Source of the DNA: an uncultured cyanobacterium
GTDB lineage: Bacteria; Cyanobacteriota; Cyanobacteriia; PCC-6307; Cyanobiaceae
Assembly: GCA_903871775.1 (NCBI GenBank)
Contig: CAIQIA010000011.1
Location: forward strand, 310,001-374,000
Length of the DNA: 64,000 nt
Direction of reading: 5' to 3'
In this document: positions 25,254-31,283 of the stretch, piece after piece
Layout of the letters: every line of letters begins with the position of its first letter
Numbering within the stretch: the stretch's first letter is position 1
Translations under genes and position numbers: made by a program
The notes under the pieces: generated by a model
Seen by the model: only the letters and a program-made list of their open reading frames with translations
Database searches by the model: none
What the model was told of the DNA's origin: nothing

Positions 25254-25742
25254 ATGGCCACCGCCCCGATGTTCGAGCTCATTCCCTACGAGCGGTTCCG
25301 CGACACACCCGCGGTCCGGTTCTTCGACATCACCGTTCCCACCTCCAATGCCCGCGATCTGGTGATCCACCAGGGGCCGGCGGTCAGCCCCCCCGACGCC
25401 GATGACGGCAGCTGGCAGTTCTATCTGCATCCCCGCCAGGAGGACAACCTGCTGGCCCTGCACGGCGGCCGCACCTTCTACCTGGTGAATCTGGGCTGGA
25501 ACTACCCCTTCCACATCGTCCGGCTCGAGACCGGCGGCGACATCCTGCGCATTCCGCCGGGCACCTTCCACCGCTCGATCTCGGATCCCGACGGCTCGGT
25601 GGTGCTTAACCAGGCCGTGCGCGATCCGCAGACCAACGTGGTGCGCGAGTTCCGGGTGTACAACAGCGGCCGCATTCCCCGCCTCTTCGCCGTCACCAGC
25701 CGCACTGCCCCGCTGCCTAAGCTGCACGGTTGCTGCTGGTGA
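25254..25742 (+). CDS. Small cupin-like protein
   Basis: A 162-residue soluble protein, mostly beta-strand with a cupin-like course: YLHPRQEDNLLALHGGRTFYLVN, WNYPFHIVRLETGGDILRIPPGTFHRSISD (motif 1/2-type Pro-Gly-x-x-His) and VREFRVYNSG. Only one clear metal-type His (GTFHRS) stands in the expected motif, so binding is uncertain. The start ATG 25254 or 25269 (MFELIPYERF). No pathway assignment. The last 26 bases overlap the convergent transglutaminase gene. Confidence 0.7.
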   Translation: MATAPMFELIPYERFRDTPAVRFFDITVPTSNARDLVIHQGPAVSPPDADDGSWQFYLHPRQEDNLLALHGGRTFYLVNLGWNYPFHIVRLETGGDILRIPPGTFHRSISDPDGSVVLNQAVRDPQTNVVREFRVYNSGRIPRLFAVTSRTAPLPKLHGCCW

Positions 25743-26592
25743 GTTCCTCGGCGTCGATGCACCATTCGAGGGTGCTGGTGACCCCGCCGGGACCGTGGAA
25801 GGTGCCGCTCACCGCCGCCGTGAGTTCGGGATTCGAGGAGCTGGCCAGGGGGACGTAGCGGTCATCGACCGGCCCCTTGCCGCTGGGGTCGAAGCCCCGC
25901 CAGCCGGCCCCGGGGAGATACACCTCGGCCCAGGCGTGCAGGTCATAGCGCTGGGGTCGGGGTTCGACCAGGTGGTATCCGCTCACGAAGCGGGCGGGCA
26001 GGCCGATGCAGCGGCAGCATTCGATCAGCAGCACCGCCAGGTCGCGGCACGACCCCACCCGCTCCCGCAGGGTGCGACCGGCGGGCCAGGGGGGGCCATG
26101 GTGGCGTTGGGTGTAATTGACCCGTTCCTGGATCATCTCGACCAGTTGCTGCAGAAAGGTGAGGCCCTGGTGGTCGCTGCCGATGAGCGCCTCCTGGGCC
26201 AGGGCCACCGCCGCCGGGTCGTGCTGCCCGTTGGGCAGCCAGCCCTGCAGGTTGCTGAGCAGGTCGGCATTGAGTCGGCCGATCGGGTAAGGCAGCCGTG
26301 GTGGCTGGTCTTCGAGGCAGAGCTGCAACAGCGGCGGTGGGCGGGTGATCACCTCCGATTCCGCCACGATCTCGAAGCGGTCGGTGCTGCCGACGAAGCG
26401 GGCCCTGAGGATCTGGTCGCCTCCGGCGGCCAGCAGGTCGTACTGATGGCAGGGTTCCGGGTTGAAGTGCAGCCTGTGGCTGACCAGCGTCTGAAAGCCG
26501 ATGGTGCGCGGCATCAGGCAGAAGCGATGGGCACCCAGCTGAACCGGTTTGTCGTAGGTGTAGACGAACCGGTGACTCAGGCGGACGTGCAT
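25717..26592 (-). CDS. Transglutaminase-like cysteine protease family protein
   Basis: A 291-residue bacterial transglutaminase-like protein. The N-terminal beta domain (MHVRLSHRFVYTYDKPVQLGAHRFCLMPR) is typical of the 'transglutaminase N-terminal' family. The catalytic triad is visible: Cys in RVGSCRDLAVLLIE, His in YDLHAWAEVYLPGAGW, Asp in RGFDPSGKG. It overlaps the alpha-E gene by 16 bases and forms an operon with the permuted ATP-grasp gene. This three-gene set is known from comparative genomics as a predicted peptide-synthesis or modification system; product unknown. Confidence 0.92.
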   Translation of the reverse strand: MHVRLSHRFVYTYDKPVQLGAHRFCLMPRTIGFQTLVSHRLHFNPEPCHQYDLLAAGGDQILRARFVGSTDRFEIVAESEVITRPPPLLQLCLEDQPPRLPYPIGRLNADLLSNLQGWLPNGQHDPAAVALAQEALIGSDHQGLTFLQQLVEMIQERVNYTQRHHGPPWPAGRTLRERVGSCRDLAVLLIECCRCIGLPARFVSGYHLVEPRPQRYDLHAWAEVYLPGAGWRGFDPSGKGPVDDRYVPLASSSNPELTAAVSGTFHGPGGVTSTLEWCIDAEELTSSNRAA

Positions 26593-27533
26593 GACGGCGC
26601 AGCAAAATAACGGGCTTCGAGCTGCCCATGCAGTTGGTTGAGCTGGATCTGCAGATCGTCGATCACCTCGTGCAGGCCACTGTTGATCACATCGTCAACA
26701 CGGGCGTAGTTCCAGTGGGCGCGCAGGGGACCCAGCAGGTGGCTGACCCCGTTGTGCCCCTTGTGCAGCGGTTGCTGCTCGATCTCCTCAAGCGATGTTG
26801 CCAGGCCATTGAGGCAATAGCGCACCGACCGCGGAAAATCGGGGTCGAGCAGCAGGAACCCGGCGACGCCGCTGGGGGTGATCGGTTGCTGCGTGTGCTG
26901 CCGGTACATCTGATAGGCACTGGCGCAGCGCAGCAGGGCGATCCACTGCAGCTCATCGATGGCGCCGCCCACCGCTTCGGCCGAGGGCAGCAGCAGGAAG
27001 TACTTCACATCGAGGATGCGGGCGGTCTTGTCGGCTCGCTCCAGCAGGCGGCCGAGGTTGGCGAACTGCCAGCTCAGGTCGCGGCGCATGGTCGAATCCG
27101 CGATTCCGTACAGCTGCTGGCAGCCGCGGCGCACCTGCTGCAGCTGCTCCGGCAGGGCCTCCTGCCAGAAGGGCTCCCCCGGCTGCAGGTCGAGGTAGAG
27201 GGCATTGAGATCTTCGAAGAACTCGTTGGGGATCACCTCCCGGATCTGCCGTGCGTTCTCGCGGGCGATGGCGATGCAGTTGCGGATCGCATTGGGGTTG
27301 TCTTTCTGCGCCAGCAGGAACTGCACCACCTGCTGGGGTTGCCCCTCGGGATGCAGGCTTTCGAAGAGGCTGCGGTCGGCGCAGGCATCGATGAGCGGCA
27401 GCCACACCGAGGGGGCGTCGTTGGCCATGTCGAGGGCCACCGACTGGCTCACCTCAAGAAAGCGGGCCAGGTTCTCGGCCCGCTCCACGTACCGGAAGAT
27501 CCAGTACAGCTGTTCGGCTACGCGGCTGAGCAT
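26577..27533 (-). CDS. Alpha-E domain protein
   Basis: A 318-residue helical protein of the alpha-E family, always linked with permuted ATP-grasp and transglutaminase genes. It shows MLSRVAEQLYWIFRYVERAENLARFLEV at the N-terminus, REVIPNEFFEDLNALY, and SWQFANLGRLLERADKTARILDVKYFLLLP in the middle. The conserved Glu/Arg in YVERAEN and LERADKT recur as an internal duplication. The ATG at 27533 overlaps the ATP-grasp stop by 16 bases; upstream codons are inside that gene. Biochemical role not established. Confidence 0.93.
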   Translation of the reverse strand: MLSRVAEQLYWIFRYVERAENLARFLEVSQSVALDMANDAPSVWLPLIDACADRSLFESLHPEGQPQQVVQFLLAQKDNPNAIRNCIAIARENARQIREVIPNEFFEDLNALYLDLQPGEPFWQEALPEQLQQVRRGCQQLYGIADSTMRRDLSWQFANLGRLLERADKTARILDVKYFLLLPSAEAVGGAIDELQWIALLRCASAYQMYRQHTQQPITPSGVAGFLLLDPDFPRSVRYCLNGLATSLEEIEQQPLHKGHNGVSHLLGPLRAHWNYARVDDVINSGLHEVIDDLQIQLNQLHGQLEARYFAAPSCTSA

Positions 27534-28966
27534 GAGACCACCCAGGTGTCCTTGCTGCCCCCACCCTGGGACGAGTTCACCACCAGGGACCCGCGCTTGA
27601 GGGCCACGCGGGTGAGGCCCCCGGGGGTGACCCAGGTGTCGCGACCCCGCAGGATGTAGGGCCGCAGGTCCACATGGCACGGGTACAGCTCCCCATTGCT
27701 CAGGGAAGGGACCGTCGACAGTTCGAGGGTGGGCTGGGCGATGTAATTGCGGGGATTGGCCTCGATCAGCCCGCGGAAGGTCTCGATCTGCGCGGCATCG
27801 GCCTGGGGACCGATCAGCATGCCGTAGCCACCGGCTTCAGACACCGCCTTGACCACCAGCTCCGGCAGGTGCTCGAGCACGTAGCGACGGTCGTCATCGC
27901 GGGCGCAGAGGTAGGTGGCCACGTTCGGGATGATCGCCTCCTCACCGAGGTAGTACCTGATCATCTCAGGCACATAGGCGTAGATCAGCTTGTCATCGGC
28001 CACGCCGGTGCCCGGGGCGTTGGCGATGGCCACCTCGCCCTGGGCGAAGCAGCGCATCAGCCCCTTCACCCCCAGCATCGAATCGCGGCGGAAGCAGTCG
28101 GGGTCGATGAAATCGTCATCGATGCGGCGGTAGATCACATCGACCCGCTCGAGGCCCATGGTGCTGCGCATCCAGACCTTGCCGCCTTCGCAGACCAGGT
28201 CAGAGCCTTCAACCAGCTGGATGCCCATCAGCCGGGCCAGGTAGCTGTGCTCGAAGTAGGCGCTGTTGTAGACCCCGGGGGTGAGCAGCACCACCCGCGG
28301 CGACGAGGTCCAGGGGGCCATCTCCTGCAGGGTCTGCAGCAGCTGGGAGGCGTAGTCGTCGATCGGGGTGACCCGCTGGCTGTGGAACAGGTCTCCGAAG
28401 AGCTGCTTCATCACCCGCCGGTTCTCAAGGAAGTACGCCACGCCCGACGGGCAGCGCAGGTTGTCTTCCAGCACCCGCCAGGTCCCTTCGCCGTCGCGGA
28501 TCAGGTCGAGCCCCGAGATGTGGCACCAGCGGTTGAGCGGTGGCACCTGCCCGAGCATCTGCGGCCGCCAGCCCTGGCTGCTGAGCACGTCCTCCCTGGG
28601 GATGACGCCATCCTTCAGGATCATCTGATCGCCATAGACGTCGGCCAGGAAGCGGTCGATGGCCTCGAGCCGCTGCACGAGGCCGGCATCGAGGCGCTGC
28701 CACTCGTCGTGGTCGATCAGCCGCGGCAGCGGGTCGAAGGGCAGGATGCGCTCGCTGGCCTCGGCCTCGCCGTTGTAGAGGCGGAAGGTGGCACCGAGGC
28801 GCTTGAGCAGCTGTTCAGCGGCCCGGTGGTTGTGGTTGAGCCGGTGCAGACCCAGGGCCCCCAGCTGGTCCATCAGCGCCCCCATGGCCCGGCGCGGGGT
28901 GTGGCTGGGACTCATGTATTCGTCAAAGCCCGCACTGGGGGCGTAGGACTCGAACATGGGCCGCAT
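27518..28966 (-). CDS. Circularly permuted ATP-grasp protein
   Basis: A 482-residue circularly permuted ATP-grasp ligase-like protein (CP_ATPgrasp). It contains FDPLPRLIDHDEWQRLDAGLVQRLEAIDRFLADVYG, VIPREDVLSS, the WRVLEDNLRCPSGVAYFLENR segment, VYNSAYFEHSYLARLMGIQLVEG, VIYRRIDDDFIDP and the C-terminal VVKAVSEAGGYGMLIGP with HVDLRPYILRG. First gene of the three-gene operon. Starts: ATG 28966 or 28957 (MFESYAPSAGF, the more usual start). Predicted to activate a carboxylate for peptide-bond formation; substrate unknown. A perfect NtcA box lies about 95 bases upstream. Confidence 0.93.
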   Translation of the reverse strand: MRPMFESYAPSAGFDEYMSPSHTPRRAMGALMDQLGALGLHRLNHNHRAAEQLLKRLGATFRLYNGEAEASERILPFDPLPRLIDHDEWQRLDAGLVQRLEAIDRFLADVYGDQMILKDGVIPREDVLSSQGWRPQMLGQVPPLNRWCHISGLDLIRDGEGTWRVLEDNLRCPSGVAYFLENRRVMKQLFGDLFHSQRVTPIDDYASQLLQTLQEMAPWTSSPRVVLLTPGVYNSAYFEHSYLARLMGIQLVEGSDLVCEGGKVWMRSTMGLERVDVIYRRIDDDFIDPDCFRRDSMLGVKGLMRCFAQGEVAIANAPGTGVADDKLIYAYVPEMIRYYLGEEAIIPNVATYLCARDDDRRYVLEHLPELVVKAVSEAGGYGMLIGPQADAAQIETFRGLIEANPRNYIAQPTLELSTVPSLSNGELYPCHVDLRPYILRGRDTWVTPGGLTRVALKRGSLVVNSSQGGGSKDTWVVSCSAA

Positions 28967-29059
28967 ACCGCTGCTGCGCGCATGGTCCTCAATCGAGGGG
29001 GCGCCTGAGTGTGACGTTGGTTACAGAATGCGAGCCTGGCCCCGTAGCCCCTGATCTCT

Positions 29060-29101
29060 GTAGTAACGGCTACCCAAAGCGCCCCGCTCGCCCGGCATGA
29101 T
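29060..29101 (+). promoter_or_regulatory. Perfect NtcA box with weak -10
   Basis: GTA-N8-TAC at 29060-29073 matches the NtcA consensus exactly and is the only fully palindromic box found. On the plus strand CATGAT (29096-29101) follows after 22 bases and keeps A2 and T6 of TAN3T; the next gene starts at 29126. On the minus strand no good hexamer stands at 22-23 bases, so the box more likely serves the small plus-strand gene, or represses the ATP-grasp operon. The rest of the 28967-29125 spacer shows nothing else. Confidence 0.65.
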
Positions 29102-29125
29102 CCCATCATTCTCACTGGTATCGCA

Positions 29126-29329
29126 ATGGCAGACGACGGAGTTGGCGGGGCGGCGCCGGCCGTTCGGTTCCACGGCATCCGGGTGCGTCATCGTCAGCCC
29201 ACCGGCGCCTTCGATGGTCATCTGGTCTGTTACCAGCAGCTGCAGCAGGACCAGGGCCAGGGGGAAGGCCCCACCACCGCCCCGCAGTTGACCCGGCTGT
29301 CGCTGATCGAGGAGATCACCTGGCTCTGA
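29126..29329 (+). CDS. Small hypothetical protein, possibly NtcA-controlled
   Basis: A 67-residue protein I do not recognise. It has a conserved-looking core VRFHGIRVRHRQPTGAFDGHLVCYQQL, a Gln/Gly-rich linker and a C-terminal LTRLSLIEEITWL. It is accepted as a gene mainly because a perfect NtcA box with correctly spaced -10-like hexamer precedes it; no Shine-Dalgarno is visible before the ATG. Several known NtcA-regulated cyanobacterial regulators are of this size, but no similarity to IF7 is seen. The 3' end overlaps the convergent DUF723-like gene by 14 bases. Confidence 0.5.
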   Translation: MADDGVGGAAPAVRFHGIRVRHRQPTGAFDGHLVCYQQLQQDQGQGEGPTTAPQLTRLSLIEEITWL

Positions 29330-29540
29330 AGCGGTGGTCGCGCAGGCAGTAGCGGCAGCCCCCCATCGTCTCGAGGTGCCGTTCGGGCGTGATCACGATC
29401 TCGGCCACCGGATGCTCCCGGCAGCGGATGCGGATCGGCGAACGGAAACTGCGATAGACGATGCCGCTGTAGTCGTAGCGATCCCCGAACCGGGAGCGGG
29501 CCCGGGTGAGAAAGGTGGCGACATCGATGCGGCTGCCCAT
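29316..29540 (-). CDS. Small DUF723-like zinc-ribbon protein
   Basis: A 74-residue protein with the pattern F..RA..RFGDRYDYSGIVYRSFRSPIRIRCREH ... ERHLETMGGCRYC, which matches the YDYS / CxxH ... HL..GGCxxC motif of DUF723-type modules seen in phage endonucleases and VSR-like proteins. Putative zinc ligands: Cys and His of RCREH, and the CRYC pair. Here the module stands alone, without a nuclease domain. It lies 24 bases upstream of the ureC stop region in the same direction and could be the remnant of a larger gene. Confidence 0.6.
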   Translation of the reverse strand: MGSRIDVATFLTRARSRFGDRYDYSGIVYRSFRSPIRIRCREHPVAEIVITPERHLETMGGCRYCLRDHRFRAR

Positions 29541-29564: not shown

Positions 29565-31283
29565 TCAGAGCAGCTGGTAGAGCTGGGCCATGGGCAGCAC
29601 TGTGGCTGGTTCGCAGGTCAGCAGGGTGTCGTCGGCGAACACTTCGTAGGTTTCGGGATCCACGGCGATGCGCGGTCGTGCCGTGTTCAGGCGCATGGCT
29701 TCCTTGCCGATGCCACGGGTGTTGACCACCGGCACGCACGGTCGCCGCAGCCCCAGGCGCCGGGGCAGGTCGGCATCGAGGGCGGCCTGGGAGATGAAGG
29801 TGAGGCAGCTGGGGGCCAGGGCGGCGCCGAAGGCGGCGAACATCGGCCGGCCATGGACCGGTCCCGGTGTCGGAATCGAGGCGTTGGCATCGCCCATCTG
29901 CGCCCAGGCGATGCTGCCGGCCTTGAGCACCAGCTGCGGCCGCACCCCGAAGAACCCGGGCTTCCAGAGCACCAGGTCGGCGAGCTTGCCCACCTCGATC
30001 GAGCCCACCTGGCCATCGATGCCGTGGGCGATCGCCGGGTTGATGGTGACCTTGGCGATGTAGCGCTTGAGGCGGTGGTTGTCGTTGCGCCCGCCCGCCG
30101 CCGCATCTTCGGCGAGGGGGCCCCGCTGCAGCTTCATCTTGTGGGCCGTCTGGAAGGTGCGGGTGATCACCTCGCCCACCCGGCCCATCGCCTGGGAATC
30201 ACTGGCGATGATGCTGAAGGCGCCCAGGTCGTGGAGGATGTCTTCGGCGGCGATGGTCTCGCGGCGGATGCGGGATTCGGCGAAGGCCACATCTTCGGGA
30301 ATCGCCGCATCCAGGTGGTGGCACACCATCAGCATGTCGAGGTGTTCCTCGAGGGTGTTGCGGGTGTAGGGACGGGTCGGGTTGGTCGACGAGGGCAGCA
30401 CGTTGGCCTCGCCGCAGATGCGGATGATGTCGGGGGCATGGCCGCCGCCGGCCCCTTCGGTGTGGAAGGTGTGAATGGTGCGGCCGGCGATCGCCCGGAT
30501 CGTGTCCTCCACGAATCCGGCCTCGTTGAGGGTGTCGGTGTGGATGCACACCTGCACATCGAACCGGTCGGCCACCGACAGGCAGGCGTCGATGGCGGCC
30601 GGGGTGGTGCCCCAGTCTTCGTGCAGCTTGAGGCCGCAGGCACCGGCCACGATCTGCTCCTCCAGGGCGGCGGCGGTGCTGGCGTTGCCCTTGCCGAAGA
30701 AGCCGAGGTTCACCGGCAGGCCCTCGGCGGCCTGCAGCATCCGCGCCAGATGGAAGGCGCCGGGGGTGCAGGTGGTGGCGTTGGTGCCGGTGGCGGGGCC
30801 GGTGCCGCCCCCCAGCAGGGTGGTGGTGCCGGCGGCCAGGGCGGTCTCGACCTGCTGCGGACAGATGAAGTGGATGTGGGTGTCGATGACACCGGCGGTG
30901 AGGATGTGGCCCTCGCCGGCGATGGCCTCGGTGCCGGGGCCGATCACCACCGTCACGTCGTCGCTGATGTCAGGGTTGCCGGCCTTGCCGATGGCGCAGA
31001 TGCGTCCGTCGCGCAGGCCCACGTCGGCCTTGACGATGCCCCACCAGTCGAGGATGAGTGCATTGGTGATCACGGTGTCGACGGCGCCCTCGGCCCGGGA
31101 GGTCTGCCCCTGGCCCATGCCATCGCGGATCACCTTGCCGCCGCCGAACTTCACCTCATCGCCGTAGCGGGTGAAGTCTTTCTCGACTTCAAGAATCAGG
31201 TCGGTGTCGGCGAGGCGCAGGCGGTCACCGGTGGTGGGGCCATAGGTCTCGGCGTAGGCCCGTCGGTCCATCGGGTAGGCCAT
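29565..31283 (-). CDS. ureC: Urease alpha subunit
   Basis: Catalytic subunit of nickel urease, hydrolysing urea to ammonia and carbamate. 572 residues, normal length. Active-site signatures: [16 protein letters not shown] (Ni ligands), [11 protein letters not shown] with the carbamylated bridging Lys, [13 protein letters not shown], the flap region [20 protein letters not shown], and the [13 protein letters not shown] Asp. The ATG overlaps the ureB stop (ATGA). Although ureB-ureC are coupled, ureA lies 2 kb away beyond an opposite-strand gene. Confidence 0.98.

Follow-up and report, generated by a model that had tools for sequence, protein, structure and literature searches.

A predicted divergent NtcA-controlled region between a CP_ATPgrasp operon and a small open reading frame in a cyanobacterium of the family Cyanobiaceae

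Gene layout around the intergenic region

The window analysed here is the whole stretch of 64,000 nucleotides. Within it, the genes ureB and ureC on the minus strand were followed by an open reading frame (ORF) of 74 residues, then by an intergenic gap, and beyond the gap by the genes for CP_ATPgrasp, Alpha-E and transglutaminase-like proteins, the three domains being present in one operon according to Pfam (Table 1). The gap housed a small ORF on the opposite strand. The ATG at 28957–28955 is a more likely start for CP_ATPgrasp than the ORF start at 28966. The same gene order was observed in a second genome of the genus, the sister genome (G001, also L193), which is a MAG deposited under the name Synechococcus sp. 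UW140; the comparison within the genus consists of these two genomes, one of them an incomplete MAG. An ntcA gene was present in the genome (367 bits, for a cut-off of 245).

In a synteny survey of 80 ATP-grasp loci, Alpha-E was downstream of ATP-grasp in every case, and transglutaminase was present in 65, the flanks surveyed being limited. The upstream neighbour was ureC in 40 of the 80 family loci, many of which have short flanks. The 74-aa ORF was present in 11 family genomes, counting this one, and among the 80 ATP-grasp loci it adjoined ATP-grasp only in the sister genome. Its relatives in the family measured approximately 77–120 aa, most of them with longer C-terminal tails, and it gave a weak PHROG match to a phage endonuclease-like profile. 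Two contigs filed under Bifidobacterium breve and Rhodopirellula MAGs (L199 and L234) carried picocyanobacterial ATP-grasp loci, with 73–75% identity to the window protein, and are probably mis-binned. ATP-grasp sequences 57–58% identical to that of the window were seen in L260, L261, L262, L266 and L268, labelled Planctomycetaceae, Acidobacteria and Terriglobia.

Table 1. Position of the genes and predicted regulatory elements in the window.
Feature	Position	Strand	Remarks
Transglutaminase-like protein	25717–26592	−	Pfam PF01841 and PF08379
Alpha-E protein	26577–27533	−	Pfam PF04168, E 6e-96; match begins at residue 50 of a longer ORF
CP_ATPgrasp protein (circularly permuted; CP_ATPgrasp_2/1)	27518–28966	−	Pfam PF14403, E 3e-162; PDB 3n6x, E 1e-154
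−10-like hexamer GACCAT	28982–28987	−	23 nt after the proximal site; hexamer and spacing identical in L193
Proximal NtcA-type site GTAACCAACGTCAC	29011–29024	−	GTAN9AC form; at −67 of the ATG-MF start
Distal NtcA box GTAGTAACGGCTAC	29060–29073	+	Exact match to the palindromic consensus GTAN8TAC
−10-like hexamer CATGAT	29096–29101	+	22 nt after the distal box
Small ORF, 67 aa	29126–29329	+	ATG start; lineage-specific; predicted transcription start at about 29108
74-aa ORF	29316–29540	−	Between ureC and the small ORF; 14-nt tail-to-tail overlap with the small ORF
ureC (urease alpha)	29565–31283	−	Pfam PF00449/PF01979

The NtcA-type site upstream of the ATP-grasp operon

In canonical NtcA promoters, a GTAN8TAC box precedes the start by about 41.5 nt and the −10 element is TAN3T (PMC3898017). 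The operon side of the gap contained a second, imperfect site, missed by the preliminary description of this DNA, which appears to serve the divergent operon. This proximal site departs from the full GTAN8TAC consensus, its right half-site being CAC instead of TAC; the corresponding sequence in L193 is GTAACCGTCGTCAC, at −64. Sites of the GTAN8nAC kind are present in the NtcA ChIP list, for example that of furC, GTAGCATAGACAAC (PMC3898017). The hexamer GACCAT makes a poor −10 element for the site, and relatives show CATGAT or CAGGAT at 22–23 nt.

Upstream regions of the ATP-grasp gene were compared across cyanobacteria, using one sequence per genus for 78 genera. An exact GTAN8TAC was observed within 400 nt upstream of ATP-grasp in 46 of them, mostly at 50–190 nt, while other spacings of the half-sites gave 1–11 genera, the best other inverted triplet 20, and a Markov simulation a mean of 2.8. 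TAN3T was enriched 23–25 nt downstream of the box in the direction of ATP-grasp and not in the opposite direction. Within the family, GTAN9AC occurred between −90 and −40 in 52 of 53 non-redundant loci (0–5 for other spacings). The family site, mostly in the GTAN9AC form, lay at approximately −61 to −78 of the ATP-grasp ATG, and 51 of the 66 family ATP-grasp promoters had CATGAT or CAGGAT at 22–23 nt. Exact GTAN8TAC boxes occupied this site in Prochlorococcus, as in many other genera. Since the site is kept in 52 of the 53 family loci and in 46 of the 78 genera, the CP_ATPgrasp/Alpha-E/transglutaminase operon would seem to belong to the core targets of NtcA in cyanobacteria. The operon-side site is probably ancient and likely activates the operon in most cyanobacteria, and the proximal site of the window is very probably a true NtcA site. 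This conserved NtcA-type promoter is the strongest result of the analysis, the small ORF being a plausible but unproven genus-specific gene.

The distal box and the small ORF

The distal box had been reported in the preliminary description as the sole exact GTAN8TAC of the window, followed at 22 bases by a −10-like hexamer and then by a tiny ORF on the plus strand. A motif search confirmed that the box is the only one, and both the hexamer CATGAT and an ATG-started frame of 67 codons were found where they had been announced. A lone exact box is not significant and is no evidence in itself, because 0.35 are expected per window; at least one was present in 30 of 100 shuffles. The complete genome contains 24 such places, many of them within long ORFs.

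Comparison with the sister genome was more informative. The distal box is exact there too (GTAATATCGGCTAC on the plus strand, GTAGCCGATATTAC on the minus strand) and the 22-nt spacing is kept, with the hexamer CAGGAT; in neither genome does the hexamer have the first T of TAN3T. The gap has otherwise diverged between the two genomes. The conserved islands correspond to the box, a CAAAGCG flank and CA[TG]GATCCCAT at 22 nt, and, on the other side of the gap, to CATTCnGTAACCnnCGTCACACT...GATTGAnGACCAT. The signature GTAN9AC-(20–23)-CA[TG]GATC had a single occurrence in the 2.57 Mb genome, at the distal box and facing the small ORF, and the sister genome carries it likewise inverted relative to ATP-grasp. 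Because the box, the spacing, the −10 hexamer and the ORF are all kept in the sister genome, and because the signature is unique in the genome, the distal box is raised above the chance expectation. It is probably a true NtcA site, and there is a reasonable case that the plus-strand transcript is activated by NtcA. The plus promoter, made up of the box and CATGAT, appears to exist only in this genus and is likely newer than the site of the operon.

The arrangement of box, 22 nt and CATGATC on the plus strand is the signature of the relatives' ATP-grasp promoters, here pointing away from ATP-grasp. The spacer of the plus promoter in the window was closest to that of one relative's ATP-grasp promoter (15 of 22 positions, shuffle P of about 0.01); the spacer of the sister genome did not show this likeness. 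It is possible that the plus promoter is an inverted copy of an ATP-grasp promoter.

From the start point predicted by adding 41.5 to the box centre, it is 18 nt to the ATG of the small ORF, which itself comes 52 nt after the box (55 nt in the sister genome). Counted from the start of the box, these distances are 66 and 69 nt, and match those of ATP-grasp in the relatives (mostly 61–78). The homologue in L193 has 58 aa and the same stop. Upstream of the last 35 codons the net length change between the two genomes is 24 nt, so the frame holds. Over these 35 codons, dN was 0.105 and dS 0.476 (dN/dS of about 0.22), and third positions accounted for 10 of the 17 differences. The first 14 of the compared codons showed a single difference, a silent one, and the 41 nt from 29222 to 29262 were identical in both genomes, silent sites included, for which ordinary coding constraint is an inadequate explanation. 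The observed substitutions would suit one minus-strand frame of these bases about equally well. Owing to this minus-strand frame and to the near-invariant first 14 codons, the evidence for coding is only moderate: the small ORF bears moderate signs of purifying selection, and the chance that it is a translated, selected protein is put at slightly under even.

Homologues of the small protein were searched for in 60 relatives, in 400 family genomes (with the C-terminal half) and in 291 class genomes (with a two-sequence profile), and the only convincing one was that of the sister genome; the remaining matches, with E values of 0.02–1, were scattered over unrelated places. Pfam, NCBIfam and PHROGs, like the phage records, contained nothing that matched the protein. 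A similar ORF as convergent partner of the 74-aa gene was not found in the relatives, and a search for a source of the small ORF at the DNA level returned, the sister genome apart, only matches that were short and dispersed, mostly in the glutamine/leucine-rich part. An AlphaFold model computed from the two sequences contained three strands at low confidence (mean pLDDT 66.6, pTM 0.42) and was rejected as too weak for a fold search. The proposal of a new nitrogen-status regulator was left unsupported by these searches, with no family match and one homologue in one sister genome. What stands of the preliminary reading is the NtcA box in front of a small ORF, likely real, with its matching −10 hexamer, and kept in the sister genome. 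The lack of homologues and of box conservation that would have refuted that reading was not observed, since there is one homologue and the box is conserved.

Elsewhere in the genome (L278:756-1014; G000:C8:7976-7989), another exact box, GTAACCGTAACTAC, has TACGAT at a distance of 21 nt, and a 64-codon ORF (MDQAISLSLGQQFEVERMSRAID...) devoid of Pfam match follows 50 nt beyond the box. This ORF is the cleaner of the two candidates for a small protein under NtcA control.

Proposed organization and comparison with known systems

We propose that the gap at 29.0–29.1 kb is a divergent NtcA-controlled regulatory region with two back-to-back promoters, and we give this model as a whole, drawn from sequence comparison, a probability of about 0.6. 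On the minus strand, NtcA would bind GTAACCAACGTCAC, whose centre precedes by about 41.5 nt the start predicted near 28976, and would activate the CP_ATPgrasp–Alpha-E–transglutaminase operon when nitrogen is short. This proximal promoter would represent, in this genus, one that is preserved across the family and that most of the genera sampled carry with exact boxes. Facing the opposite way, on the plus strand, the distal box and CATGAT at 22 nt would constitute a second class II NtcA promoter, restricted to this genus. The transcript starting at about 29108 would be short, would encode the 67-aa ORF and would be directed at the genes on the urease side, towards their 3′ end. The plus promoter may have originated as an inverted copy of the ATP-grasp promoter, and the ORF may be translated. 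The preliminary description had suggested that the divergent operon could share the distal box; nitrogen control of the operon is indeed predicted here, but the operon has no need of this box, having a conserved site of its own 49 bp closer. A more ambitious version, in which the operon is a core NtcA-driven starvation function and the inverted promoter copy made a young nitrogen-responsive small gene acting in nitrogen metabolism, is improbable.

Both sites might instead serve the ATP-grasp operon only; the distal box would then act as an upstream activator site, 49 bp beyond the proximal one, and the small ORF would be no gene. The ATP-grasp-oriented logo GTA[TG]C...TACAG, drawn from the boxes across genera, is likewise matched by the distal box in its minus-strand reading (GTAGC...CTACAG, with agreement in the flank TACAG), so that the box may be a mere upstream activator site. 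A second upstream site is present in a few other genera with no small ORF beside it, exact in g10 (−114) and g79 (−126) and imperfect in g5/g34 (about −125), at 49–51 or 60–61 bp from the proximal site, two clusters separated by approximately one helical turn; the lack of a homologue of the small ORF outside the genus, among the 400 family and 291 class genomes, points the same way. Against this organization stand CATGAT/CAGGAT at exactly 22 nt on the plus strand of both genomes in a signature unique in the genome, as well as the dN/dS of the small ORF and the preservation of its start distance and stop, and we regard it as rather unlikely.

Alternatively, the plus promoter could be real and its product a small regulatory or antisense RNA targeting the urease/74-aa mRNA at its 3′ end, with the ORF only incidental. 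The convergent layout with its 14-nt overlap and the invariant 41-nt stretch would suit such an RNA, for which a precedent exists in NsiR4 of Synechocystis, an sRNA highly expressed under nitrogen limitation (PMC9196836). On the other hand, RNA folding was not unusual (z of 0.8 to 1.4), and neither a terminator nor an Rfam match at the gathering level was found; we consider this product unlikely. As for an isolated GTAN8TAC arising by chance in an intergenic region, next to an open frame in GC-rich DNA, the expected frequency of exact boxes and their presence inside long ORFs speak for it; the box is nevertheless kept in the sister genome within a diverged gap, and conserved NtcA-type sites occupy this region across cyanobacteria; such a coincidence is very unlikely.

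The divergent two-promoter organization may illustrate the way in which regulated promoters are gained by young small genes. On the operon side, a deeply conserved NtcA-type site, together with the reported NtrC dependence in Burkholderia cenocepacia of the DUF404/407-DUF403-transglutaminase cluster and of the urease genes (PMC5491218), suggests that two unrelated nitrogen regulators, NtcA and NtrC, control the ATP-grasp/Alpha-E/transglutaminase operon. The product of the operon should therefore be sought under nitrogen starvation, and the role of this widespread operon becomes a directly testable question in laboratory cyanobacteria. Among the papers searched, none linked NtcA to the operon, which may nevertheless already be listed in the main regulon papers.

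The operon is a proposed peptide synthesis or modification system, often accompanied by Anbu in other bacteria (PMC3597751, PMC5666114), with the same three genes in one operon as here. It is reported to co-occur with urea-metabolism domains in marine metagenomes (PMC3597751), and Anbu to be raised in nitrogen-limited Pseudomonas putida (cited in PMC5666114). NtcA control in cyanobacteria would fit the reported nitrogen links of the operon. In contrast to the NtrC-dependent cluster of B. cenocepacia, the likely regulator here is NtcA, and the operon follows the urease genes. As in the class II NtcA promoters of glnA and nirA (PMC3898017), GTAN8TAC is located about 22–23 nt before a −10-like hexamer, the neighbouring urease genes are nitrogen-related and the genome contains ntcA; the differences are a −10 element CA[TG]GAT(C) instead of TAN3T, and two sites placed back to back, that of the operon with a degenerate right half. 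The short ORF behind an NtcA box resembles the small NtcA-controlled regulators GifA/GifB, PirA and NirP1, from which the 67-aa protein differs in being confined to one genus and in lacking a match in Pfam, NCBIfam and PHROGs.
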